Assembly (NCBI GenBank): GCA_025769875.1
Contig: JAGFNK010000277.1
Span: forward strand, 1-64,000
Origin: Russula earlei
Lineage: Eukaryota > Basidiomycota > Agaricomycetes > Russulales > Russulaceae
Direction: 5' to 3'
DNA: 64,000 bases
Below the pieces are notes generated by a model. That model had not been told where the DNA came from and searched no databases. It saw only the letters and a list, made by a program, of their open reading frames with translations. A program made the translations under genes and the position numbers. Shown piece after piece: positions 20,441 through 44,552 of this stretch. Numbering within the stretch: position 1 is the first letter of the stretch; each line of letters starts with the position of its first letter.

Positions 20441-20759
20441 CATTTAAGGTAGAAGAGAAGACGTCCATCACCCACCAACGTCACGTGTCATTACTTTTTC
20501 TGTGACATACCTGTCCACAATGGGATGAATACACAGAAAAATGGCTCTAGAAGTTGTTTCACACCTGTTTCTCAAATTCTGCTCTCAGGGAATTGCTCAT
20601 AGACATGTTAAAATGTCATATTCAATTTGGCTTGCTGTGGGATGCAGAATTGAGTTGGGAATGTCAAAAGTTGTAATCATAAGGTATAACATTATAATAA
20701 GATACTGATAACTGTTGAACTGGAACCTGAATAGATCAAAGAAGGTGAAGACCTTCATA
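20441..20759. other. Spacer between NLR and transposon nest
   Basis: AT-rich; nothing recognised. Confidence 0.3.
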
Positions 20760-21375
20760 TTTAGGCTCCAAAGTGCCTTAAATAAGATCAATGGTCACGT
20801 CTATGAACACATCCTACAAATGCAGATATGCTTAAGTCAAGCAAGCAGTACTTGTGGAGGGAAGGAGTGTTAGATCCTTCTAGAGTATGGCAACAAGATG
20901 AGAGGGGCTCTGCAGATGGGGTAGGAGTCAACTGTTTGGGATTGGCAAACTAAGTTGAGCTTAAGGCTCAACTGCTACAAACTGGGGGCTTTATATAGCC
21001 CTCAGGGATACAGTTCGTGCTACTGTAGTACTGGTTGGTGCTATAGAAGCAAAGGCAGCTCATAGAAGCAATAGTTGCTTCTGTGTAAACGATCTCGATG
21101 CTGGAAGCATTAAGTGCTTCCCTAGTAGCAATCTCAGTGTCATAAGTACTTTCCCAATCAGGGAAACAATGTATGTGGCAGTACAGGAACATCTGGGACA
21201 GAAGCAATGCAACTCATTGCTTCTGTATCGCTTCAACAGAAAGATATGATCAACACGTTCCGAACGCAATATCAAGGAACATAAACAGTCAAGATCTGAT
21301 GCATGCATGATGCAAATGATGCAGTCCATAGTTCAGGTGTTCCAGCATCTTCTGGACCCCAAACCACTTGGTAAC
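20760..21375 (-). repeat. LTR family A, near-complete, 5' base(s) lost
   Basis: The plus strand reads from AGGCTCCAAAGTGCC to CCACTTGGTAACA. In the coding sense of family A this is minus. It contains TATATA (near 20992) and the self-primer segment at about 20955-20966. Palindromes GAAGCAATAGTTGCTTC (near 21065) and GGAAGCATTAAGTGCTTCC (near 21103) lie in it. It is followed at once by an inverted LTR piece, so it is not a clean solo LTR. Confidence 0.8.
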
Positions 21376-21877
21376 ATTCTATAGCACCAACCAGTACTAC
21401 AGTAGCATAAACCTTATCCCTGAGGGCTATACAAAGCCCCCAGCTCATAGTAGTTGAGCCTTAAGCTCAACTTAGTTTGCCAATCCCAAACAGTTGAGTC
21501 CTACCCTGTCTGCAGAGCCCCTCTCATCTTATTGCCATACTCCAGAAGGATCTAACACTCCTTCCCCCCATGAGTATTGCTTGCTTGACTCAAGCATATC
21601 TGCATTGGTAGGACACATTCATAGACATGACCATTGATCTTATTTAAGGCACTTTGGAGCCTTAACACTTAAGCTCAACTTAGTTTGCCAATCCCAAACA
21701 GTTGACTCCTACCCCATCTGCAGAGCCCCTCTTATCTTGTTGCCATACTCTAGAAGGATCTAACACTCCTTCCCTCCACAAGTACTGCTTGCTTGACTCA
21801 AGCATATCTGCATTGGTAGGACACATTCATAGATGTGACCATTGATCTTATTTAAGGCACTTTGGAGCCTTAACATA
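21376..21877 (+). repeat. Two truncated LTR family A pieces in A1 sense
   Basis: 21379-21668 and 21669-21877 both end GGCACTTTGGAGCCTTAACA in plus orientation and lack their 5' parts. The second abuts the A1 primer-binding site at 21878 and so is the remains of the A1 5' LTR; the first is a partial duplicate of it. Confidence 0.75.
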
Positions 21878-24363: not shown

Positions 24364-24915
24364 TGTTAAGATCTGCTTAGATCTTATCACTGACTCTTAG
24401 TGAAAGAGTTGCTTGATTTAGTTCAAGCACTAAACTTCGAAGCCTTTGATGTTATCGCAGGAAGAATGAATGTTTAAGAGAAGAGAGGGACCTCTTTCAC
24501 TTAGAGTTCTGGTTATTTTGAAAAGATGTTTGAGATAGCACAAGAAATGATATTTCTTGTGTCAGAGAGTAAGTCGAGCGTAAGGCTCAACTATCAGTAC
24601 ATGAGAGTATTTATACGATATCTGGAGAACGGCTGATCCGTTTCGTACGAAACTTGAGATGCACATAGCTGAGAACCAGTAGTATCCAAAAACATAGGGC
24701 GCAACTCGATAGTGTCAGAAATGACTCATGCGTGAGTCATTTTCTTATCAATCACTGAAATCTGTAAGCAATCCATAAGCAATGAGTCATCGGTTGGTAA
24801 GCAATCAACAGTAAGCAATCAGTAAGCAGTCAGTAAGCAGTTAGTAAGCAATCAATAAGCAGTCAGTAAGCAAGCATGAGTAAGCGACGATGGAGACGCA
24901 AATTGGATCCTAACA
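24364..24915 (-). repeat. Element B 3' LTR
   Basis: TGTTA...TAACA, 552 bp. TATAAATA lies at 24615-24608 in the element sense, about 30 nt before the self-primer segment at 24582-24570. The U3 start carries about ten degenerate copies of AGTAAGCAATC (24765-24893). An inverted pair ATGACTCATGCGTGAGTCAT lies near 24720. Confidence 0.95.
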
Positions 24916-24930
24916 CCATACCCCCTCTAG
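24916..24930 (-). promoter_or_regulatory. Element B polypurine tract
   Basis: On the minus strand AGAGGGGG precedes the 3' LTR by a few bases (TATGG lies between). This is the expected plus-strand DNA priming site. Confidence 0.6.
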
Positions 24931-24947
24931 ATTAGGTCTGGCACGAC

Positions 24948-27900
24948 CTAGTCACTCACTCCGTGATATCCTTCCACCCATTCGCCTTCCCATCCTTCGG
25001 TTACTGCTTGCGCATCTCTTTCAGTGAGAGTATTGTCAGTCAGTATAGGCCTTGGACTGTAATCTGGTGGAGCGTTTATTTCTGCATAATATTCATGCTG
25101 CCTGATTTCTGCTGCGGTAGTGATTGGTCCCAACTGAGAAGTACTGGCTCTTGGCATTCGTCGCGAGGTAGAAGCCAAGCGTACCGCGTTGGGGATTTCT
25201 CGAGCTGGAATCCCACCACCTCGTCTAGCAGTTTGAGGGGCATTGGAATTTCTTCCGATTCGCACACTGCGACGCACAGGTTGACCCCTGCCCCCTCTTC
25301 CTCGTCTTCCTCGATTAGTGAGTGGGGGTTCTGATCCAGCTCTAGCTTCCGCTGGTGTAGCGTGTCGTGAGGTAATCGGGGATGGAGTCAAGGAGGGAAA
25401 AGGGGTATCCAGATTAATAACACCGTCATTCAAGACGGTCGCTACCAGTCCTTCCGCTGCAGAAGTCTCCACAGTAGCACTAGTCAGAGTACTCTTGAGG
25501 CCTTCCATTGCTGTAGAGGTACGCGTCAAGCTAGTTTTGAGATCTTCTACTGCTGTAGACGCTGCTCGAGCATTAGTGACTGCATCTCGCAAGATCTCCA
25601 CAGTGCCTCGCAGGTGTCCCCTTAACGTCCTTTCTTCTGGCAGCAGCGGCCTCAGATGACTACACCGATCAGTGGGTCGGTAAAATTTGTGATTGCCAGG
25701 GACTATACAGTGTCGGCGAGAGATGCAGGCATAGTGGGGCGTTTCGCAATGTCGGTCCCAGTGTCCTTTCCACCTGCACCATCGGCACTTGTGCTCATAC
25801 ATGAGTTGCCACCATTTAGCCATTCCTGCATTGTAAGGGGGGGACGGAGGGCGAGAAAACTTTCCTCTTTCAATCTCTTCCTCCTCGCGAGCTCCTGAAG
25901 ATGGTCCTGCTTCTCCTGCCTCTTCGTTCGAAGAATTTTCGCTTCGAGCCCCTCCTCTAATTCTTTCTGCAACGTGGCGGGCAATGACAAGCTGTACATC
26001 TGGTAAGAGGAGCTCCTCTTGCCGTAGTCCCGCACCTTCCAGAATGCCTCGCGGGCCATTTGCTCTTGAGACAAGAGACCACATTTCTCGTGCGCGAGGG
26101 AGGAATTTGGCTGCTCGGAGACGAGAATACGCTCCCTGGTAGATATCCTCCGCTCTAGCTCTATCGAGAGCCAGTTGATCTCTTTCTCGCTGAATAATTT
26201 TTTGTTGCTCGTTAAGTAATTGATTTCGTCGAGCCAGGCTAGAGAGTCGCGTGGAATGCTGGTTAATGCGCCATATCTCGGCCTGGACTCCAGCATCACC
26301 CAGCGTCTGTGTGACTGAGGCAAGAAGGGAATTGAACATGTGGAGAGTGAAATCTGGGATGTCGCCTGTAAGAATGTCAGGGTATTCTTCTTCACCCTCT
26401 GGCTGGAACTCGGGGTAGAGGTTGTAGTTAGGGTGCGCGTATAAGGGTTCTCCGAAGACCAACTTGTCCTTCCCTTGACAGCCCCAGATGAATGGTTCTT
26501 CCGCACCCGAGTTTCCACCCACACCCCATCGAATATATTTGGCCGGGGTGAGTTCATGCCAGTTGTTTGGGATAGTGATGTGGGCAAGGTGTTGTCCAGG
26601 ATCGTAGCGCTCCCATCCTTCTCCAGGGATATCGGGATCCACGTAGGTACTCGTAGGGGAGACGGTTGTAACGGGAACTGGACTAACCGATCCTTCCGTA
26701 GTAGGCCCGGAGGGGACAACTGCCTCGAGGTATTCGAGGTCAGGAAGAGATGGAGAGGGGGTTCGGACATGGTAAGAGGGGGAAGTTCGCTCATCAATAG
26801 ACATTCTTGTTTTGTTGCCAATGAGATCAAGATAGACAGGGAGAAGTGGATCAATGTGAATACTGCTGAGTCGTTGGCAAATCTCTTCGATGGGGGATGA
26901 GGGCCTTCTCCAATCAGTGTCGCTTTTCATACAGGCTTTTATAGTCCTAATGGCCTTTGGATTTTTCTTGTGAAAGTCTTCCACGAGGTCGGGGGCATGT
27001 AGGTTAGCGGCTGGCTCCCAAGAGTCGTGAGCAGAGGAGTATCCCTTCCAACGAACGTAATACTGCAACTGTTTCTTCTTTCCTACACGCCTTGACCCCA
27101 AAACGTTTTCTAATTCCCATTCTTCTTCATCATTTACGACATCTGGTGGCGGTTCTTCATAGTTTACGCCATACTCCTCCGTTTCCTGATATGGATGTAG
27201 GAGGTTAGCATGGAAGACGTCGTGAACCTTCCATCTATCGGGCAATTTCAATTTGTATGCCACTGGGCTAATTACTTCCTTTATTGTGAATGGTCCTAGT
27301 CTTTTTGCGGCTAGTTTGGCCATCGGTTGGAACGTTTTGATGTTCTTTCCTTCTAACCATACTTTATCCCCTTCTTTATAAGGTTTAAACCCTATTTTCT
27401 TCTTCAACAGCCTATGCCCTAATAGGATAGCTTTCTGGGCGTCCTGTCTTGCCTTTTGTAATGATTCCTTTCTCTCTTCTAATCTTGGAAAATTTCCCTC
27501 TGTGGTTGGCTGATAGGCTTTCGGGAGGAAGCCCATCCATAACTCGTATGGTGTTTGCTGGGTAGCACTGGAGGTATGTGAGTTTATAACATATTGGGTT
27601 ATTGGCAGCAAATCCGCCCAATCATCTTGTTGGAAATTGCAATATATTCGTAATATGGTTTCCACTGTTTGATTTGTTCTTTCTGATTGTCCATCAGTTT
27701 GGGGGTGATAGGCCGTGCTCATGTTTCTGTCTATTTTGAGTTGTCGACAAATTTCTTGAGCGAGCTTTGACGTAAAGCGAGTATCCCTATCTGATATGAT
27801 CTTGGTTGGTAAGCCTACAAATGGAAAGATCCTCTCTCGATAGATTTCTGCCAAGTCTTCCGTACCCATAGTTTCTTTAAAGGGGAGGAGTATGACCGCT

Positions 27901-30443
27901 TTAGTGCAATCATGGTCTGTTATGGTGAGTATAGAATCATATCCTTTAGATAGCGGTAACTTGGTAATGAAATCCATAGCTATAGTTTGAAAAGGAGTAG
28001 CTTCCGCTTCAAGAGTGATAGGATACATTGGCGGTTCGTTACGTCTTGTGATGACTTTATTTGATTGGCATATTGCGCATCCTTTGACATAATTTTGAAT
28101 TACTTGTCTTTGGTTAGGCCACCAATAATCTCTTCTTATCGCGGTATAGGTTTTGCGGAACCCTGGATGTCCTGCTGTTGGTCCATCATGATATTCTCGA
28201 AGGATCGCTTGATATGCTTCCATGCCTCCTGTCACTACTAGGGCGGTATCTTTTCTCCATTGTCCATTCATCGTTTTGAGTTCATAATTGTCCTTCCATC
28301 TTTTGAGAAGCCTCATGCCTTCTTCTTTTCTTTGGTCTAATTTGACTCTTTCTTCCATCGCGGTCACTTCTAGAACTTGAACGAACAATTCGTCTGGGAG
28401 AGCAGTGATTTCTTCCTGTTCTGGGATGTCAGACCTGTAATCCGGTCTTCGTGACAGTCCATCGGCTCTATTCCTTTTTCCTGGTTGATGTCGTAGTTCC
28501 AAGTTGTATTGTGCCACTATGGGGAGGTATCTTGCCACTCGGTCCCTCAGTTTGTGAGGTTCTCGATAATACATCAGATTTTTGTGGTCAGTAAAAACCA
28601 CTACTTTGTGTCGTGATCCTAGTAAGAGGTGCCTCCAATTTTTGAGTGCGGCGACCAACGCTAGAAATTCCCTGTCCCATACTGCATAGTTTCGTTCTGC
28701 TGAGTTTAAAGTCCTTGAGTAGTATCCTACTTCTCTTCTTACTTGATCTTCGTCATATTGGTAGAGAATGGCCCCTAGAGCGTACGATGAAGCATCCACG
28801 TCTAGAAAGAATTGTCTTTCTGAGTTTGGTTGCCAAAGTATTGGATCACTTGTGATTGCTTTGATTAACTTATCCAGCGCTTCTCTACAATCATCTGTCC
28901 ATTGAAAGGGGACTCCTTTCTTGAGTAGTCGCGTTATAGGTAGAGCTATAGTTGAGAAATTTGGTATGAATGGCCGATGATATCCTATCATCCCTAGGGA
29001 TACTTGTATATCTGTCTTGTCCTTGCATTCTCTTGGCCATTCGCTCAGTCCTTTGATTTTTGAAGGGTCTATTCGTATCCTTCCTTCTTCTGCTATCCAT
29101 CCTAAGACTTCTATTCTTTCCTTTTCGAATTCGCATTTGGACACTTTTAGAAAGTACGAGTGTCGTTCCATCAAGTCTAGAAATTCATGCACAATTTGTC
29201 GATGTAGTGCGTGAGTTCCTTTTGGGGTCATGATAATCCAATCATCCAGGTAATTCGCAACATTTTCTGGATATTTTTGAAGGAGTGAGCGAAAATCTCT
29301 TCTCATAGATCGTGAGAAGTATGCGGGGGCATTTCTTAACCCAAATTGCATTACTTTTGGAATGTAAGTGCCCATGGGCGTCTTGAAGGCTGCTTTTGAT
29401 TGATCTTCTTCGGCAATCCTCATATTATTGTATCCTTTGACTATGTCGAACTTTGAGAATAGGCCATTATTTTGGATTCGTTCCATGATTCTTTGGATAC
29501 TTTCCAAGGTATCATTGTCTGGTATGGTCCATTGGTTTAGTTTCCTATAGTCGATGATCAACCTCTTTTCTTTACTGTCCTTTTTACCAATAAAGAACAC
29601 TGGTGACACATAATTGGATGCTCCAGGTTTGATGTACCCTTTCTCTAGTTCTTCTTCGAGATATTTTCTCAAATATTCTCTTTCTTCTTGAGATAAAGGG
29701 TAGATCTTGCAATCCAGGGACCTAGGAGCGTCAGGGAATAGGTTTATTTTCATATCTTCTTCCCTACTAGGAGGAAAACGTGTAGAGGCCTCTTTAGAGA
29801 AGACTTTTGAATGTCGTTGATACTCTTCTGGCAAATCTTGTTCAGTTAACTTTTGCGTTTTCAAGTTTTGCTCCCTTGCCCATTCTTGAGCTAAGCTAGT
29901 CTTTTGTATATATAAGGCTTGGTCTTCTTTGGGCTTTCCACATTTTTTGACCGCTTTTAGTTGTAAGGATTTGATATAGAGATCGAGATACTTGAGTCGT
30001 GCACTTTCCAGGCGCAAGGAGCCTTCCTTAAGTTCTCCTTTTTTCCAGTCCATAGTTGGCTCGAATTCCCAGAGAAAGGGGTATCCTAATATAACCCGAT
30101 CTCCTCCCAGGGATGTGATGTAGAATTTCTGTAGCTTGTTTCGTTTGTTATAATGGACCCTAAGCCAACAGAAATGCTTGAGTTCCCCTTTCTTGTTTTC
30201 AGTTCCGTCTACATTCCGAACCATCATTGGTTCTCGGAGGGCTTGTTTTCCTATTCCTAGCCGCTTCCAGGTTTCTTCATCCAAGAAGTTTTCTGTTGCT
30301 CCACTATCTAGCAGAGCCTTTTCTGTGGCCATTCCTCGCGCCGTATGAAACGAAAAGGGGATGTTCATAGTTGCAATTCTCCTAATGTACACGGTGCGAG
30401 TTACTGCTGCCCTTAGTCTGGCCATCGACCTTGGGCTAATCAA
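24948..30443 (-). CDS. Element B Pol: protease, RT, RNase H, integrase, chromodomain plus ~670-residue extension
   Basis: Open frame of 1831 codons; the first ATG is at 30426. Order with rough residues: aspartic protease ALLDSGATENF (46); reverse transcriptase 230-480 with NYLDD (398); RNase H with FFLDVDASSYALGA (545) and TDHKNL (618); integrase zinc region GHPGF...GCAICQSNK (760-796) and catalytic DDE (MDFITKLP, IISDRDTRF, TDGQSERTNQ; 822-925); chromodomain YYVRWKGYSSAHDSWEP (1105-1160), which usually steers insertion to marked chromatin. Then come about 670 residues not normal for this family: a block GEGWERYDPG...AGVQAEIWR (about 1274-1393), a coiled region, CRWCRWKGHWDRHC (CX2CX4HX4C, about 1553) with further Cys/His, and an RG-rich tail. 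The frame overlaps the gag end by 4 nt in -1. Confidence 0.95.
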   Translation of the reverse strand: MISPRSMARLRAAVTRTVYIRRIATMNIPFSFHTARGMATEKALLDSGATENFLDEETWKRLGIGKQALREPMMVRNVDGTENKKGELKHFCWLRVHYNKRNKLQKFYITSLGGDRVILGYPFLWEFEPTMDWKKGELKEGSLRLESARLKYLDLYIKSLQLKAVKKCGKPKEDQALYIQKTSLAQEWAREQNLKTQKLTEQDLPEEYQRHSKVFSKEASTRFPPSREEDMKINLFPDAPRSLDCKIYPLSQEEREYLRKYLEEELEKGYIKPGASNYVSPVFFIGKKDSKEKRLIIDYRKLNQWTIPDNDTLESIQRIMERIQNNGLFSKFDIVKGYNNMRIAEEDQSKAAFKTPMGTYIPKVMQFGLRNAPAYFSRSMRRDFRSLLQKYPENVANYLDDWIIMTPKGTHALHRQIVHEFLDLMERHSYFLKVSKCEFEKERIEVLGWIAEEGRIRIDPSKIKGLSEWPRECKDKTDIQVSLGMIGYHRPFIPNFSTIALPITRLLKKGVPFQWTDDCREALDKLIKAITSDPILWQPNSERQFFLDVDASSYALGAILYQYDEDQVRREVGYYSRTLNSAERNYAVWDREFLALVAALKNWRHLLLGSRHKVVVFTDHKNLMYYREPHKLRDRVARYLPIVAQYNLELRHQPGKRNRADGLSRRPDYRSDIPEQEEITALPDELFVQVLEVTAMEERVKLDQRKEEGMRLLKRWKDNYELKTMNGQWRKDTALVVTGGMEAYQAILREYHDGPTAGHPGFRKTYTAIRRDYWWPNQRQVIQNYVKGCAICQSNKVITRRNEPPMYPITLEAEATPFQTIAMDFITKLPLSKGYDSILTITDHDCTKAVILLPFKETMGTEDLAEIYRERIFPFVGLPTKIISDRDTRFTSKLAQEICRQLKIDRNMSTAYHPQTDGQSERTNQTVETILRIYCNFQQDDWADLLPITQYVINSHTSSATQQTPYELWMGFLPKAYQPTTEGNFPRLEERKESLQKARQDAQKAILLGHRLLKKKIGFKPYKEGDKVWLEGKNIKTFQPMAKLAAKRLGPFTIKEVISPVAYKLKLPDRWKVHDVFHANLLHPYQETEEYGVNYEEPPPDVVNDEEEWELENVLGSRRVGKKKQLQYYVRWKGYSSAHDSWEPAANLHAPDLVEDFHKKNPKAIRTIKACMKSDTDWRRPSSPIEEICQRLSSIHIDPLLPVYLDLIGNKTRMSIDERTSPSYHVRTPSPSLPDLEYLEAVVPSGPTTEGSVSPVPVTTVSPTSTYVDPDIPGEGWERYDPGQHLAHITIPNNWHELTPAKYIRWGVGGNSGAEEPFIWGCQGKDKLVFGEPLYAHPNYNLYPEFQPEGEEEYPDILTGDIPDFTLHMFNSLLASVTQTLGDAGVQAEIWRINQHSTRLSSLARRNQLLNEQQKIIQRERDQLALDRARAEDIYQGAYSRLRAAKFLPRAREMWSLVSRANGPRGILEGAGLRQEELLLPDVQLVIARHVAERIRGGARSENSSNEEAGEAGPSSGAREEEEIERGKFSRPPSPPYNAGMAKWWQLMYEHKCRWCRWKGHWDRHCETPHYACISRRHCIVPGNHKFYRPTDRCSHLRPLLPEERTLRGHLRGTVEILRDAVTNARAASTAVEDLKTSLTRTSTAMEGLKSTLTSATVETSAAEGLVATVLNDGVINLDTPFPSLTPSPITSRHATPAEARAGSEPPLTNRGRRGRGGRGQPVRRSVRIGRNSNAPQTARRGGGIPAREIPNAVRLASTSRRMPRASTSQLGPITTAAEIRQHEYYAEINAPPDYSPRPILTDNTLTERDAQAVTEGWEGEWVEGYHGVSD

Positions 30444-32086
30444 AAATCCTCATCTGCCATAATTTTGTCCAAGAAGGCGTCCTTTTCTTCTGTCTTCATT
30501 CCTTTAATTGCCGCCATGATACTATTGATGTCATAAGCAGGGGGTTGTTCTTCTTCTTTCAAACCTTTTACAGGTTCGTCTTCTTCTGCTTCTGTAGTTC
30601 GGGCTTTAACATCCTTCCCCTTTTGTTTAGGATCGTCCTTCTTCTTCCTTTGAGGACATTGTCGACTCATATGTCCAACCTTTTTGCATATGAAGCATTT
30701 TCCTTCTGCTTGTAGTTTCTTCCTTTCTTCTTCACTAAGCCTGGAAGTAGTTCTGACTACATCCACATCCATGGCATTAGGATCCTTTTTGGCTTTCTTT
30801 TCTTTCCAGTTTTTGAGCCGTTGTGCTCTAGAGGTCAGGTTCCCAGATGTTCCTAAGGCATTCTTCATTTCATTTAAGGCTGCCGCTTCTTCCCTTGCTA
30901 TAGTTTGCCATGCATCTAGATTGCCTGCTGCCGGCAGAGGTCTTCGTCGAAGAATCATCGCGTGTAAGTTTCTTCGAAGTCCATCTCTAAACAGTTTGAC
31001 TGTTCCCTGAGTGTTTCTCGGCCATCCAGACATGAGCAAATATTGATTGAAGGTTGCAATGTAATCATCCAGTTCTCCTTCTTTCATAGTGAGTTGTTGG
31101 ATGTTCATAGTGGCGTCTTCTATAGTGGTACTGTCATGCCATTGATTTAGGAAATCTGTAGAAAATAGATTCCACAAATCTTCATCTTCGCGAAGGTGAG
31201 TAGGCGGTAATTGATTTGCATGATCCCCTTGAACCCTTCTTATCAAGGCCTCTAGTTGTTGAATTACCCAACCATCGACCTTGTCTCCTTTTATAAAGGA
31301 TAATGCGCAGGCCACTCTTTCATATGGCACTGTCATGACGCTGCTTTGAGAGTTCATGATCCTGTACAGTTCGAATTCTTTCATAAACTGTATGGTCTTC
31401 TTCCTATTTCCTGCGAACATTGCGGGAGGTTGTCCTCTCATTGAGCCCGTTCCTCCAGGTACTCCTTGAACAACTCCAGCAGGCGCTACTTGGGGCGGTC
31501 CTCCTCCGGGTGGTACTCCTCCACCTGGAGGTCCTCCTCCTCCAGGATGTCCGCCATCTGGTGCACCTCCATCGGGAGGATCACCTCCTTGTTGCTGTAC
31601 ATTTGGTATTAGCATTGTCCCATGGTGAGTGGCATACAGATTTCCAGATGTAGAGTGTGTGGTTTGAGTCGCTATCTGAGTAGTGGTAGCCATTATCTCA
31701 GTTGCCGCTTGGGTTAGATCTATGGCTGTAGCAAAGCGCTCTGTGAGCTCGTCTATAGGCTCCTTATTCTTTTCAATAACTGGAGTTTCTTCTGGTGATT
31801 CCGACTTCTTGGGCTCACTATCAGTTGTGATGGATATATCTTGTTCTGGTTCGCTTCTGATCAACCACCCACTGGTATAGGGTCTTGCTTTAGTTCCTAG
31901 ACCAAACTCTTCTGGATTGCTAATGAAGTTTTCTTCGAGTACGTAGAATCCGTCTTTGTCCCAATCGACGAAATACCACTGATCGTTGATGTATTCTGCA
32001 GGTCGGAGTTCGTTGTTAAACTGAACGTTGAAAAATCCGCCTTTTGGTTCCGTAGTAGGATGCCAACGTGCTCCTACACCTGTCAA
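30440..32086 (-). CDS. Element B Gag
   Basis: Open frame of 548 codons as bounded here. The first codon is TTG and the frame stays open upstream to about 32170 (FQGRTKDLQNF), so the true start or splice site lies further up. Blocks: EYINDQWYFVDWDKDGFYV near the start, FGLGTKARPYTSGW, a Pro/Gly-rich linker, a capsid-like helical region (GNRKKTIQFMKEFELY, EEGELDDYIATFNQYL-type), and the zinc knuckle CFICKKVGHMSRQC. It packages the RNA and builds the particle. It ends TTTTGA, with the pol frame one base back. Confidence 0.92.
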   Translation of the reverse strand: MTGVGARWHPTTEPKGGFFNVQFNNELRPAEYINDQWYFVDWDKDGFYVLEENFISNPEEFGLGTKARPYTSGWLIRSEPEQDISITTDSEPKKSESPEETPVIEKNKEPIDELTERFATAIDLTQAATEIMATTTQIATQTTHSTSGNLYATHHGTMLIPNVQQQGGDPPDGGAPDGGHPGGGGPPGGGVPPGGGPPQVAPAGVVQGVPGGTGSMRGQPPAMFAGNRKKTIQFMKEFELYRIMNSQSSVMTVPYERVACALSFIKGDKVDGWVIQQLEALIRRVQGDHANQLPPTHLREDEDLWNLFSTDFLNQWHDSTTIEDATMNIQQLTMKEGELDDYIATFNQYLLMSGWPRNTQGTVKLFRDGLRRNLHAMILRRRPLPAAGNLDAWQTIAREEAAALNEMKNALGTSGNLTSRAQRLKNWKEKKAKKDPNAMDVDVVRTTSRLSEEERKKLQAEGKCFICKKVGHMSRQCPQRKKKDDPKQKGKDVKARTTEAEEDEPVKGLKEEEQPPAYDINSIMAAIKGMKTEEKDAFLDKIMADEDF

Positions 32087-32198
32087 GGAGAAGTTTTGAA
32101 GATCCTTAGTTCGTCCTTGAAATCTCGCGTATCGTTTTCCGTTGCTTGACGTGTTGAACGGAGTATTGATAGATTCTGAATCCAGTTTTGCCTAGCTT

Positions 32199-32341
32199 TC
32201 AATGATATTGACAAGCTTGTTCTCGGCAAAAATACCAATGGATTTGACTATGTTCTATATCCCTTTTATCTAGGATATAAAGTCTTGGAGGGACTCCTAA
32301 TCGACACAGGTTCCTCCCTATGACCACTTCTGCGTATGTTG
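32199..32341 (-). CDS. Small ORF upstream of element B gag (conserved with family A)
   Basis: Reads PTYAEVVIGRNLCRL, then IHWYFCREQACQYH and a TGA (32201-32199). The matching place in A2 reads ATYAEVVKGENVYRPL, then HTYFCKDPYCHWHRQW and TAA. Both keep TYAEVV.G.N and YFC-X4-C-X2-H and both stop just after it. It has no good ATG, so it may be a first exon or be joined to gag by frameshifting. Function unknown. Confidence 0.55.
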
Positions 32342-32378
32342 GGGTCCTAATTTTGTTCCTGCTTGGTACAAAGGTAAG

Positions 32379-32391
32379 TACGCTCGACTTA
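32379..32391 (-). promoter_or_regulatory. Element B self-complementary primer-binding site
   Basis: In the element sense, TAAGTCGAGCGTA directly follows the 5' LTR end. The reverse complement TACGCTCGACTTA lies in the LTR at 32610-32598, just downstream of its TATAAATA, at the expected 5' end of the RNA. The 13-nt match is perfect. This fits Tf1/sushi-type self-priming and not tRNA priming. Confidence 0.8.
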
Positions 32392-32943
32392 TGTTAAGAT
32401 CTGCTTAGATCTTATCACTGACTCTTAGTGAAAGAGTTGCTTGATTTAGTTCAAGCACTAAACTTCGAAGCCTTTGATGTTATCGCAGGAAGAATGAATG
32501 TTTAAGAGAAGAGAGGGACCTCTTTCACTTAGAGTTCTGGTTATTTTGAAAAGATGTTTGAGATAGCACAAGAAATGATATTTCTTGTGTCAGAGAGTAA
32601 GTCGAGCGTAAGGCTCAACTATCAGTACATGAGAGTATTTATACGATATCTGGAGAACGGCTGATCCGTTTCGTACGAAACTTGAGATGCACATAGCTGA
32701 GAACCAGTAGTATCCAAAAACATAGGGCGCAACTCGATAGTGTCAGAAATGACTCATGCGTGAGTCATTTTCTTATCAATCACTGAAATCTGTAAGCAAT
32801 CCATAAGCAATGAGTCATCGGTTGGTAAGCAATCAACAGTAAGCAATCAGTAAGCAGTCAGTAAGCAGTTAGTAAGCAATCAATAAGCAGTCAGTAAGCA
32901 AGCATGAGTAAGCGACGATGGAGACGCAAATTGGATCCTAACA
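32392..32943 (-). repeat. Element B 5' LTR
   Basis: By eye identical to 24364-24915 over all 552 bp. TATAAATA is at 32643-32636 and the self-primer segment at 32610-32598. It should hold the promoter for the element. Confidence 0.95.
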
Positions 32944-34991: not shown

Positions 34992-36657
34992 TCACGCACT
35001 ATCATCATCAAGGGGAGGAGGTGATGTGGTAAAGGTGTATCGGCCTTCTTCTGCTGCCTCAGTAGGCAGCCTAATGCTGAGGCAACTATTCGCCTCTGAC
35101 TCCTCAGCAGTGGCTGAAGGAGACATGATCTGTGGGAGTCTGTCAGAGTCCCTAGGCAACCTCCAGACTGGAGGTGTGTCGGAGTGGAGAGGATTCGTAG
35201 TGAAAGGCTCCTGGAAGGTCCTGGACCCTTCTCCTTTCGCTACCTGCAAGATGCGTGGGTTAGCTATGTCCTCCCTCTCCTGGTCGGACTTCCTCTTCTT
35301 GCTCAAAGGTCCCAGTTCCCATCCTCGGTGAAAGGGGCATGATCTGACTGGGGCATAGCTGCGATGATAGGGAGGCACTAGGCAATGTGAGGCAGCGTCT
35401 GCTGCTAGTTGGTCGTGGCAATACTGGTGGGGTAGGGGACAGTACTTGTTAAAATGTCCTACCTCGCCACAGTACTTGCATCGGTTCCTTTTCCTCCTCC
35501 CTTCTATCATGTTCAGTTGCTGAGGCTCCGGAATGAAGTCAGCCGTCGCAGTAGACGCTTCTCCACTGCTGCTATAGGAGTGGTAATAGGATAGAGCTCT
35601 GGGGGGAAGGGTTTGGTGACGCTTCCAATCCTGCTCCTCCTCGAAGGCGCATACCGGACATGGTTTGGAGGACGTCAATCTCCTCTTCTGAATACCCTGG
35701 CACCGACGTAGGTGTGGGGCTGGCTGGTACTGGTTCTGGATTAGGGGTGGCATACCCCTGAACGATGTCTGCCAAAGGCAACTGAGGGACGAAGACGGGT
35801 AGAGGGGGAGTGGGCTGTCCAGCCCGGATAGTTGGTGAGGAGTTCTTCAGCCCAGACGCCTGGAGGGGTTTCTCCCTGGCTACAGCCTGCTTCGATGAAC
35901 TCCCAGCAACGTGAGCGTACTTTGGCTGCCGCCATTCTCTTCTTAGCCTCAGCCCTATCCTCTCTCTACTCCTCACTTCTCGGCTAGGTATTTATCTAGC
36001 TTGTAGCGCAACTGCTTTTCCTCTTCTTCGAGCACCTTAGTAATTAGCTTCCAACGTTTCTAGCAGGGTGTAGAGGTGGTCTAAGCGGTAGATTTCTGCC
36101 TGCAGCCCAAAGTCGCCTAGCAGGTAGAGGGTCTGTCTCCAGCGCCCTTCGAACTGCCTCTCTGTGTCGAAGCAGTCTAAGTCGTGTTCGTCTTGGCCAT
36201 AGTTATAGAGGTTATAGCAAGGGGTGGCCTGGAGGATCTCGCCATAGTCTGCATGGCCTTCTCCATTCTTCCCCCTCACTCTCGGCTCTCCCAAGGCTAC
36301 GTCATAGGCCACATACCTGGCCGGTTTGTTGCCCCAAGTTATGCCATCAGGGATGTCAATCCCTGTGTGGTGTCTGTCAGCATCCCATCGTACCCAAGGC
36401 TCTCCAGGGTGGGCATCCTGGTCAAGAGTGCTGGTGGGGGACGTCACATCCCAATCCCCAGGCTGAATGTCGACTTGGTCAGCAGGGGGTCCAAATTCGA
36501 GAGGACACATATCTGCTTCTCCTTCTCCAGTGTTATGTTCATCCATTCCTTGGAAGAAGGCGAGGAGGGAAGCATCGGGAGTGGTGATTTCAAGGGGCCC
36601 CTCTGCACCAGAGAGGTCGGATTGGGGAACGATTTCATTAGTGGGAGTTTGGGACAT
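34992..36657 (-). pseudogene. A2 post-chromodomain extension
   Basis: Minus strand, in two or three frames. 36657-36037 reads GEPWVRWDADRHHTGIDIP, NKPARYVAYD, QATPCYNLYNYG and LGDFGLQAEIYRLDHL, aligning with the element B block GEGWERYDPG...AGVQAEIWR. 35976-34992 carries CKYCGEVGHFNKYC (CX2CX4HX4C, about 35480-35440), then PHQYC, SHCLVPPYHRSYAPVRSC and FH, aligning with CRWCRWKGHWDRHC, PHYAC, RHCIVPGNHKFYRPTDRC in B. The order of the two blocks is the same in both elements. Confidence 0.8.
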
Positions 36658-43369: not shown

Positions 43370-44552
43370 TGTTAAGGCTCCAAAGTGCCTTATATAAGAT
43401 CAATGGTCGCATCTACAAACGCGTCCTACCAATGCAGATATGCTTGAGTCAAGCAAGCAATACTCGTGGAGGGGAAGGAGTGTTAGATCCTTCTAGAGTA
43501 TGACAACAAGATGAGAGGGGCTCTGCAGATGGGGTAGGAGTCAACTGTTTGGGATTGGCAAACTAAGTCGAGCTTAAGGCTCAACTGTTTCTACTGGAGG
43601 CTTTATATAGCCCTACAGGGATAAGGTTCATGCTACTGTAGTACTGGTTGGTGCTATAGAAGCAAAAGGCAGGCTCATAGAAGCGAGGTTGCTTCTATGT
43701 AAAACGATCTCGGTGCTGGAAGCATTAAGTGCTTCCTGTTACCGAGTGGTTTGGGGTCTGGAAGATGCCGGAACACCTGAACTATGGACTGCACCGTTTG
43801 CATTATGCGTGCGTCAGATCTTGATCGTTTATGTTCCTTGATATCACATTCGGAGCACGTTGATCGTATCTTTCAGAAGATGTACTGAAGAAGCAATGAG
43901 TAGCATTGCTTCTGTCCCAGATGTTCCTGTACCGCCACGTACGTCGATTCCTTGATTGGGGAAGCACTTAATGCTTCCAGCACCGAGATCGTTTACATAG
44001 AAGCAACCTCGCTTCTATGAGCCGCCTTTTGCTTCTATAGCACCAACCAGTACTACAGTAGTATGAACCTTATCCCTGTAGGGCTATATAAAGCCTCCAG
44101 TAGAAACAGTTGAGCCTTAAGCTCGACTTAGTTTGCCAATCCCAAACAGTTGACTCCTACCCCGTCTGCAGAGCCCCTCTCATCTTGTTGTCATACTCTA
44201 GAAGGATCTAACACTCCTTCCCCTCCACGAGTATTGCTTGCTTGACTCAAGCATATCTGCATTGGTAGGACGTGTTTATAGACACAACCATTGATCTTAT
44301 TTAAGGCACTTTGGAGCCTTAACACTTCCCCAATCAAGGAATCGACATACGTGGCGGTACAGGAACATCTGGGACAGAAGCAATGCTACTCATTGCTTCT
44401 TCAGTACATCTTCTGAAAGATACGATCAACGCGCTCCGAATGTGATATCAACGAACATAAACAATCAAGATCTGACGCACACATAATGCAAATGATGCAG
44501 TCCATAGTTCAGGTGTTCCGGCATCTTCTGGACCCCAAACCACTCGGTAACA
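43370..44552 (-). repeat. A2 5' LTR, interrupted
   Basis: The LTR is 43370-43736 plus 44330-44552; between them lies an inverted solo LTR of the same family. TATATA is at about 43609-43604 and the self-primer segment at about 43575-43564. The primer-binding site next to the LTR (43369-43358, TAAGTCAAGCTT in the element sense) matches it at 11 of 12 positions. Confidence 0.9.
43737..44324 (+). repeat. Solo LTR family A nested in the A2 LTR
   Basis: TGTTACCGAG...CTTAACA, 588 bp, opposite in sense to its host LTR. CTTCC lies on both sides (43732-43736 and 44325-44329). The pair of LTRs in head-to-head order makes an inverted repeat of several hundred bases. Confidence 0.92.

Follow-up and report, generated by a model that had tools for sequence, protein, structure and literature searches.

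A selected Pol tail behind the chromodomain of a Russula earlei Ty3/Gypsy retrotransposon, and an apparent overprinted +1 reading frame within it

The Pol protein of element B, a Ty3/Gypsy chromovirus within the 64,000-nucleotide stretch of Russula earlei DNA that we analyzed (hereafter the window), runs on past its chromodomain into a long tail, which is a real Pol-encoded module common to two of the genome's Gypsy families. The pattern of change in Pol codons 1396–1548 of the B lineage appears to mark a second protein-coding gene overprinted on Pol. As a whole, the explanation that accounts best for the sequence comparisons, and that we consider probable, is a selected Pol tail module combined with an overprinted gene in the +1 frame of B, both of which would be expressed from an internal RNA with leaky scanning.

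Results

Element B and Its Pol

Element B is flanked on both sides by a 5-bp target duplication, TCCAG, and has the following parts:

24364–32943, minus strand: element B, an LTR retrotransposon with identical LTRs, TG...CA ends and a target duplication
24364–24915 and 32392–32943, minus strand: LTRs of element B, 552 bp each, 100% identical
24948–30449, minus strand: Pol of B, 1833 codons plus stop in a single open frame
26964–27116, minus strand: chromodomain, Pol residues 1112–1162 (Pfam PF00385, E 5.9e-13)

The order along B Pol is protease, RT, RNase H, integrase, chromodomain and then tail. RT, RNase H, the zinc-binding and SH3 parts of the integrase, and the chromodomain scored above the Pfam cut-offs, and the protease and integrase core fell slightly under them. 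The RT-RNase H-IN order with an integrase-linked chromodomain, together with the LTRs and the short target-site duplication, identifies B as a Ty3/Gypsy chromovirus. The Gag frame of B ends at 30440 and Pol is open from 30449, an overlap of the open frames by 10 nt (30440–30449), and by coordinate arithmetic Pol is offset by −1 from Gag, so that its translation would call for a −1 shift or re-initiation.

A Tail Shared by Two Gypsy Families

The tail lies in the same open frame as the rest of Pol and, at 668 codons, is as long as the roughly 670 residues that an earlier note on this DNA had proposed; the two conserved blocks which that note described in B were both found where it had placed them. 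The parts of the tail, and the matching parts of A2, a broken copy of a second family (family A) in the window, are as follows:

24948–26954, minus strand: tail of B Pol, 668 codons plus stop (Pol 1166–1833)
26268–26627, minus strand: block 1 of the B tail, tail residues ~110–229 (alignment with family A; dN/dS 0.13–0.20)
26085–26282, minus strand: predicted coiled coil behind block 1, tail residues ~225–290 (AF2 helix; aligned with family A)
25746–25787, minus strand: second zinc knuckle, CX2CX4HX4C (tail C390, C393, H398, C403)
25662–25736, minus strand: second Cys/His cluster, PHX2C...C...H...C (tail H407, C410, C416, H422, C431)
36085–36408, minus strand: block 1 in A2
35337–35480, minus strand: knuckle and Cys/His cluster in A2

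Block 1 aligned between B and A2 over 159 columns with 33% identity (E 1e-15), and block 2, comprising the knuckle and the Cys/His cluster, aligned with an E of 4e-8. Against an intact family-A copy (P0005), the B tail was collinear over residues 84–435 with 25% identity (BLASTP E 5e-23), and the order common to the A and B tails is block 1, the coil, an R-[LI]-R-G-G-A-x-S-E motif, the knuckle and the second Cys/His cluster. Across 21 B copies, C390, H398, H407, C410, C416 and C431 were present in all 21, and C393, C403 and H422 in 20 each, while the metal-ligand residues were all kept in 20/20 A copies. The conservation of the Cys/His pattern claimed earlier is therefore correct for the metal ligands, but does not extend to the H of “HCXVP,” a position at which 6 of the 21 B copies have H and the other 15 have Q. 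On the opposite strand, a 151-codon open frame lies over block 1 (26445–26900, plus strand).

A2 had been described as carrying both blocks in the same order, which it does, but A2 itself is broken: aligned with another A copy, it has one stop in Pol and nine extra bases, and for this reason its blocks 1 and 2 lie in two separate frames. We read eight other A copies from inside the integrase onwards, and in six of these (L045–L049 and L051) the end of the integrase, the chromodomain, block 1, the coil and the knuckle shared one open frame. L050 has a stop ahead of the chromodomain followed by 673 open codons that reach the tail's end, and L052 is frameshifted. The middle region of L052 is open in +1, and this frame continues into that of the knuckle for a total of 328 codons; other family-A matches to block 2 among those listed have open frames of similar length (326–332 codons). 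Such a frame may reflect sequencing error, decay or a subfamily.

Searching the genome returned at least 73 rows for the B tail, at least 137 for A block 2 and at least 150 for A block 1, some of which are pieces of a single copy. Four loci with 37–60% identity (L053–L056) were considered as new tail lineages and rejected, being indel-ridden members of the second B subfamily. A third chromodomain Gypsy family, read at two places (L057 and L058), has an open frame of 1275 aa that stops about eleven codons past the residue matching the first of the B tail (matched by eye at A-[IL]-[RK]-T-I), indicating that the tail is not general to Gypsy Pol in this genome.

AF2 modeling of the trimmed Pol-frame tail from three window sequences gave a mean pLDDT of 49.9; the coil was modeled with confidence as a helix (pLDDT 89–96 at tail residues ~244–273), and block 1 had no resolved fold. 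The coiled coil probably dimerizes, and both Cys/His sites probably bind zinc. The tail would most likely be a nucleocapsid-like nucleic-acid-binding protein made at the Pol level, perhaps freed from the integrase by the protease; the zinc-knuckle pattern is what suggests that it might bind RNA or chromatin, or serve as a second nucleocapsid.

Searches for Relatives

No Pfam match was found anywhere in the last 668 residues of B Pol, PDB sequences gave only chance-level matches (E 0.81 and 1.9), and a set of 5.8 billion proteins held no relative that we could find. When viral contigs were scanned for the tail pattern, 35 stretches fit and 0 were confirmed. The protein sets searched are assumed to hold few fungal proteins, so the lack of a match is weak evidence of rarity. 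The zf-CCHC profile (PF00098) scored 15.0 bits against A2, compared with a gathering cut-off of 20.8, and left B unmatched; the knuckle of the tail has in common with this retroviral nucleocapsid/Gag knuckle the CX2CX4HX4C pattern, but differs from it in the PHX2C...C...H...C that follows and in lying under the Pfam cut-off. The protein predicted from the +1 frame (see below) had no match in Pfam or PDB sequences. A known extra domain of LTR-element Pol (dUTPase and the like) was rejected as an identity for either the tail or the +1 protein, as neither gave a profile match. The earlier note knew of no Ty3/Gypsy domain of this form, and the module was likewise not recognized in the Pfam, PDB and protein searches or in the passages of papers available to us.

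Purifying Selection on the Tail

We estimated dN/dS by the Nei-Gojobori method from 11 hand-picked pairs, chosen mostly for coverage and few stops, among 21 B copies (the window copy and 20 of the at least 73 genome rows). Between the window copy and L028, which belongs to a second B subfamily relative to it, dN/dS was 0.01 for RT, 0.04 for integrase, 0.13 for the chromodomain and 0.21 (0.16–0.26) for the tail, so that the selection on the tail proposed earlier is borne out, and a value near 1 does not describe the tail as a whole. By part, we obtained 0.15 for block 1, 0.30 for the coil, 0.63 (0.30–1.45) for the middle, 0.08 for the knuckle and 0.12–0.24 for the other tail parts. The other five between-subfamily pairs agreed with this one, the six together spanning 0.19–0.21 for the tail, 0.13–0.20 for block 1 and 0.05–0.09 for the knuckle, while pairs within a subfamily had few changes and were noisy (for example, 0.46 with an interval of 0–0.93 for the knuckle of L036 versus L041).

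Synonymous divergence between B and L028 was 0.16 in the coil and 0.19 in the middle, compared with 0.46 in block 1 and 0.8–1.2 in other tail parts, and it was this oddly low value in the coil and middle that led us to a second reading frame. The Pol-frame dN/dS of 0.63 in the middle would then be due to the suppression of silent changes by this apparent second frame. The overall reading of the earlier note, a selected and collinear module with a second knuckle and a Cys/His cluster, holds, but the overlapping +1 frame had been missed.

An Open +1 Frame over the Tail

The second frame and its parts are located as follows:

25703–26926, minus strand: overlapping +1 frame on the same strand as Pol, 407 codons from stop to stop
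25703–26794, minus strand: proposed +1 protein from the first conserved ATG, 363 aa (P0004), start codon inferred
25805–26263, minus strand: selected core of the +1 frame, Pol codons 1396–1548, +1 residues ~178–330

We compared the openness of this frame with permutations in which the Pol protein was kept and synonymous codons were drawn from Pol itself. The longest +1 run over the whole of Pol in 2000 permutations was 232 codons (95th percentile 136), compared with 407 in B, and over codons 1175–1581, where 15.4 +1 stops were expected, 0 of 20000 permutations were stop-free. Over the same stretch the number of +2 stops was ordinary (21 vs. 23.3 expected). By this test the +1 frame stays open for longer than chance would allow under the constraint of the Pol protein, with the caution that the +2 frame in codons 230–660 also has few stops (16 vs. 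29.0 expected, reached in 2 of 2000 permutations), a region in which the rate test described below shows nothing and no gene is proposed.

Nine of the 21 B copies (B, L025–L028, L033, L036, L041 and L043) were free of +1 stops over codons 1175–1581 and the other 12 had at least one; over codons 1219–1548, ten copies had a +1 stop and 17 a Pol stop. We read the +1 stops as decay. The stops inside the listed B copies are mostly TGA, as expected from C-to-T changes at CGA codons (RIP-like or methylation decay).

Rates of Change in the Two Frames

To sites at which B and L025 agreed, and at which at least two of L028, L036 and L041 were present and agreed, we assigned four classes according to the effect of a change on each frame, with neutral rates set by base pair and CpG context from the silent changes in Pol codons 1–1100. 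In codons 1396–1548, changes that are silent in Pol and alter the +1 protein numbered 9 vs. 58.0 expected (P 1.6e-15, in a single subfamily comparison of two copies with three, of 21, and with sites assumed independent). Changes that alter Pol and are silent in +1 numbered 16 vs. 50.1 expected, those that alter both frames 10 vs. 84.8, and those silent in both 6 vs. 3.2. Both frames are therefore constrained in this stretch, +1 more so than Pol (omega 0.32 vs. 0.79), although a comparison of the +1-silent with the Pol-silent changes alone (16 vs. 9) was not significant (binomial P 0.058). Amino acid identity between B and L028 was likewise higher for the +1 protein (135/153) than for Pol (126/153), whereas in the other five stretches compared it was Pol that was better conserved.

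A scan of the whole of Pol with a 51-codon sliding window gave P <1e-3 in only six windows, all within codons 1376–1551. Classing the changes by the +2 frame likewise gave low values in these six, even though +2 is interrupted by stops there and so cannot be coding. Among the 21 copies, polymorphism (states found in at least four copies) showed the same dip, at 0.028–0.065 compared with 0.12–0.15 outside, and within the first subfamily (B vs. L026) the dip was weaker, at 0.027 compared with 0.043–0.057 in RT and integrase. Constraint on the +1 amino acids was lacking in codons 1171–1290 (0.81–0.98 of expectation) and in codons 1582–1830, and was intermediate in codons 1291–1395 (0.42–0.47 of expectation) before becoming full from 1396. 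Since codons 1171–1290 carry no +1 constraint, the start of the +1 protein is uncertain.

Alternative Explanations

Loss of silent changes could also arise if the tail encoded Pol only, with an RNA signal (for packaging, reverse transcription or splicing) in codons 1396–1548 and a +1 frame left open by codon composition. Several points are compatible with this reading: constraint on synonymous sites does not by itself distinguish an RNA signal from a protein, no +1 signal was seen in family A, and by the permutation test stops were also scarce in the +2 frame of a different part of Pol. An RNA signal should, however, slow the +1-silent changes too, and these stood at 0.32 of expectation in codons 1396–1548 compared with 0.28 (36/127.7) in tail codons 1171–1290 and 1582–1830; the doubly silent sites were above expectation, and the ratio of the classes differed between these two sets of codons (Fisher P 2.5e-4). 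Folding of the constrained stretch was ordinary (z −0.10 against shuffles, compared with −0.68 for a control stretch), which disfavors RNA structure as the cause, and a codon-composition origin has to contend with a run longer than any seen in the 2000 Pol-preserving permutations. We therefore regard this reading as unlikely. Recent recombination between the B subfamilies would mimic constraint by lowering divergence, and between-subfamily synonymous divergence is indeed low here (0.14–0.29, compared with ~0.34–2.8 in other parts of Pol and the tail), but it would lower all classes of change, whereas doubly silent and +1-silent sites diverge as they do elsewhere in the tail, so that we give it very little weight. 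Slightly less weight still goes to the tail being a passenger rather than a part of Pol under selection: the interval on the Pol-frame dN/dS of the middle includes 1, and the third Gypsy family does without a tail, but the between-subfamily values for the knuckle and block 1, the retention of the ligands in both families and the collinearity of the tail with family A all speak against it.

The main rival, which we hold to be improbable though less so than an RNA signal, is that ribosomes enter the +1 frame through a programmed +1 frameshift within the tail, which would yield Pol with an alternative end and not a free protein. Ty3 shifts by +1 between Gag and Pol, the same direction as would be needed here, and the onset of +1 constraint within codons 1291–1395 fits a frame entered partway along the tail. 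Against this, the +1 frame is also stop-free upstream, in codons 1175–1274, where 5.0 stops were expected and 37 of 20000 permutations were as low, with each of the upstream parts weak when taken alone (811/20000 for 1175–1218 and 984/20000 for 1219–1290).

Origin of the +1 Frame

In family A, the longest +1 run was 95 codons, compared with a permutation 95th percentile of 144, and the reference copy has +1 stops at tail codons 242, 248 and 344, so the frame is not open across the stretch. No drop in silent changes was seen among the 20 A copies, which are too alike for a strong test. Over the stretch, the Pol frames of B and A aligned with a score of 72 (shuffled 32.1, sd 5.2, reached in 0/500), from which it follows that the Pol frame, common to both families, is the older one. 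The +1 frames of B and A scored 53 (shuffled 31.2, sd 5.1, reached in 3/500), a likeness that could follow from the Pol frame that they share, or could point to an ancestral +1 frame that A has since lost. Of the two histories, gain of the +1 frame in the B lineage is the simpler.

Predicted Products and Expression

AF2 modeling of the +1 protein from a single sequence gave a mean pLDDT of 42.0, with helices at residues 185–328, inside the selected core, of which only residues ~281–310 were confident (77–92), the helices before residue 260 scoring 31–52. The C-terminal ~150 residues are thus weakly predicted to be helical. Sequence features that could bear on expression are:

26936–26943, minus strand: TATAAAAG, directly behind the chromodomain, a weak candidate for an internal promoter
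26802–26804, minus strand: Pol-frame ATG at Pol 1216, candidate start of a separate tail protein, in 21/21 B copies
26768–26770, minus strand: second +1 ATG (codon 1227, ACCATG), in 19/21 B copies

The first +1 ATG, at codon 1219, was present in 21/21 B copies and has a weak context. Just past the chromodomain, TATAAAA was found in 20/21 B copies and the full 8-mer TATAAAAG in 5/21, and the 8-mer was also present just past the chromodomain in 8/8 A loci looked at and absent from the matching place in the one third-family locus examined. Together with the conserved ATGs, this arrangement would fit a short internal mRNA read by leaky scanning. The 8-mer recurs once in B, however, at 31295 within Gag, few B copies carry it in full, and B Pol uses ATA more than any other Ile codon (32/70), all of which weaken the case for a promoter.

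Under the explanation that we favor, a second gene would have arisen in the +1 frame of the B lineage, overprinting the DNA of block 1, the coil and the middle; selection maintains the carboxy-terminal ~150 residues of the protein that it would encode. The tail would most likely also be expressed from a shorter internal RNA, on which ribosomes could start at the Pol-frame ATG 1216 to make the tail protein, and leaky scanning to the +1 ATG at 1219 or 1227, which is a guess on our part, would yield the overprinted protein. A bolder version of this, which we put forward tentatively and think rather unlikely in its entirety, is that the region behind the chromodomain is a third, virus-like bicistronic gene, with TATAAAAG as internal promoter of a short RNA, the first ATG giving a coiled-coil double-knuckle protein, and the next +1 ATG giving a de novo helical accessory protein in the B lineage only.

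Discussion

Fungal Ty3/Gypsy chromoviruses (Metaviridae) have the LTRs and RT-RNase H-IN-chromodomain order seen in B, but B differs from them in the 668 residues that follow the chromodomain. In the parts available to us, two papers on such elements mention dUTPase, an additional ORF and inserted domains, and not this tail (PMC2864245, PMC3248453). Bdelloid Juno elements carry an extra Pol zinc knuckle, located after a dUTPase between PR and RT according to the portion seen (PMC5408684). Juno and B are alike in having a second knuckle outside Gag, and differ in that the passages seen of that paper name no chromodomain or second Cys/His cluster for Juno. In the titles, abstract openings and passages that we covered, which included few subscription papers, there was no tail or overlapping frame like that of B, and no case of overprinting in the Pol tail of an LTR retrotransposon. 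The tail is thus, within that literature, an undescribed module behind the chromodomain, and it could influence integration or RNA handling.

Overprinting is a recognized source of new viral genes. The paramyxovirus P/C gene is one example of an overprinted accessory gene. Overprinted accessory genes are also reported for deltaretroviruses (PMC3744397). As in these viral cases, B has a younger frame over an older one; unlike them, it is a retrotransposon, the overlap lies inside the Pol tail, and the +1 product is predicted from sequence. Ty1 p22, which lies in the Gag frame, offers a second comparison, as both it and the product proposed for B would be internally expressed extras of LTR retrotransposons, the latter differing in that it uses an alternative frame of Pol. 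The p22 and p18 proteins of Ty1 come from a subgenomic transcript, p22 being made from within GAG, according to the part of the source that we saw (PMC8458377). Since family A has the tail alone and B has the tail plus the second frame, a single genome could show how an overlapping gene arises, and in elements that have many copies. Dense nested direct and inverted repeats, at 20757–21876 and 43370–44552, lie on either side of the region studied here.
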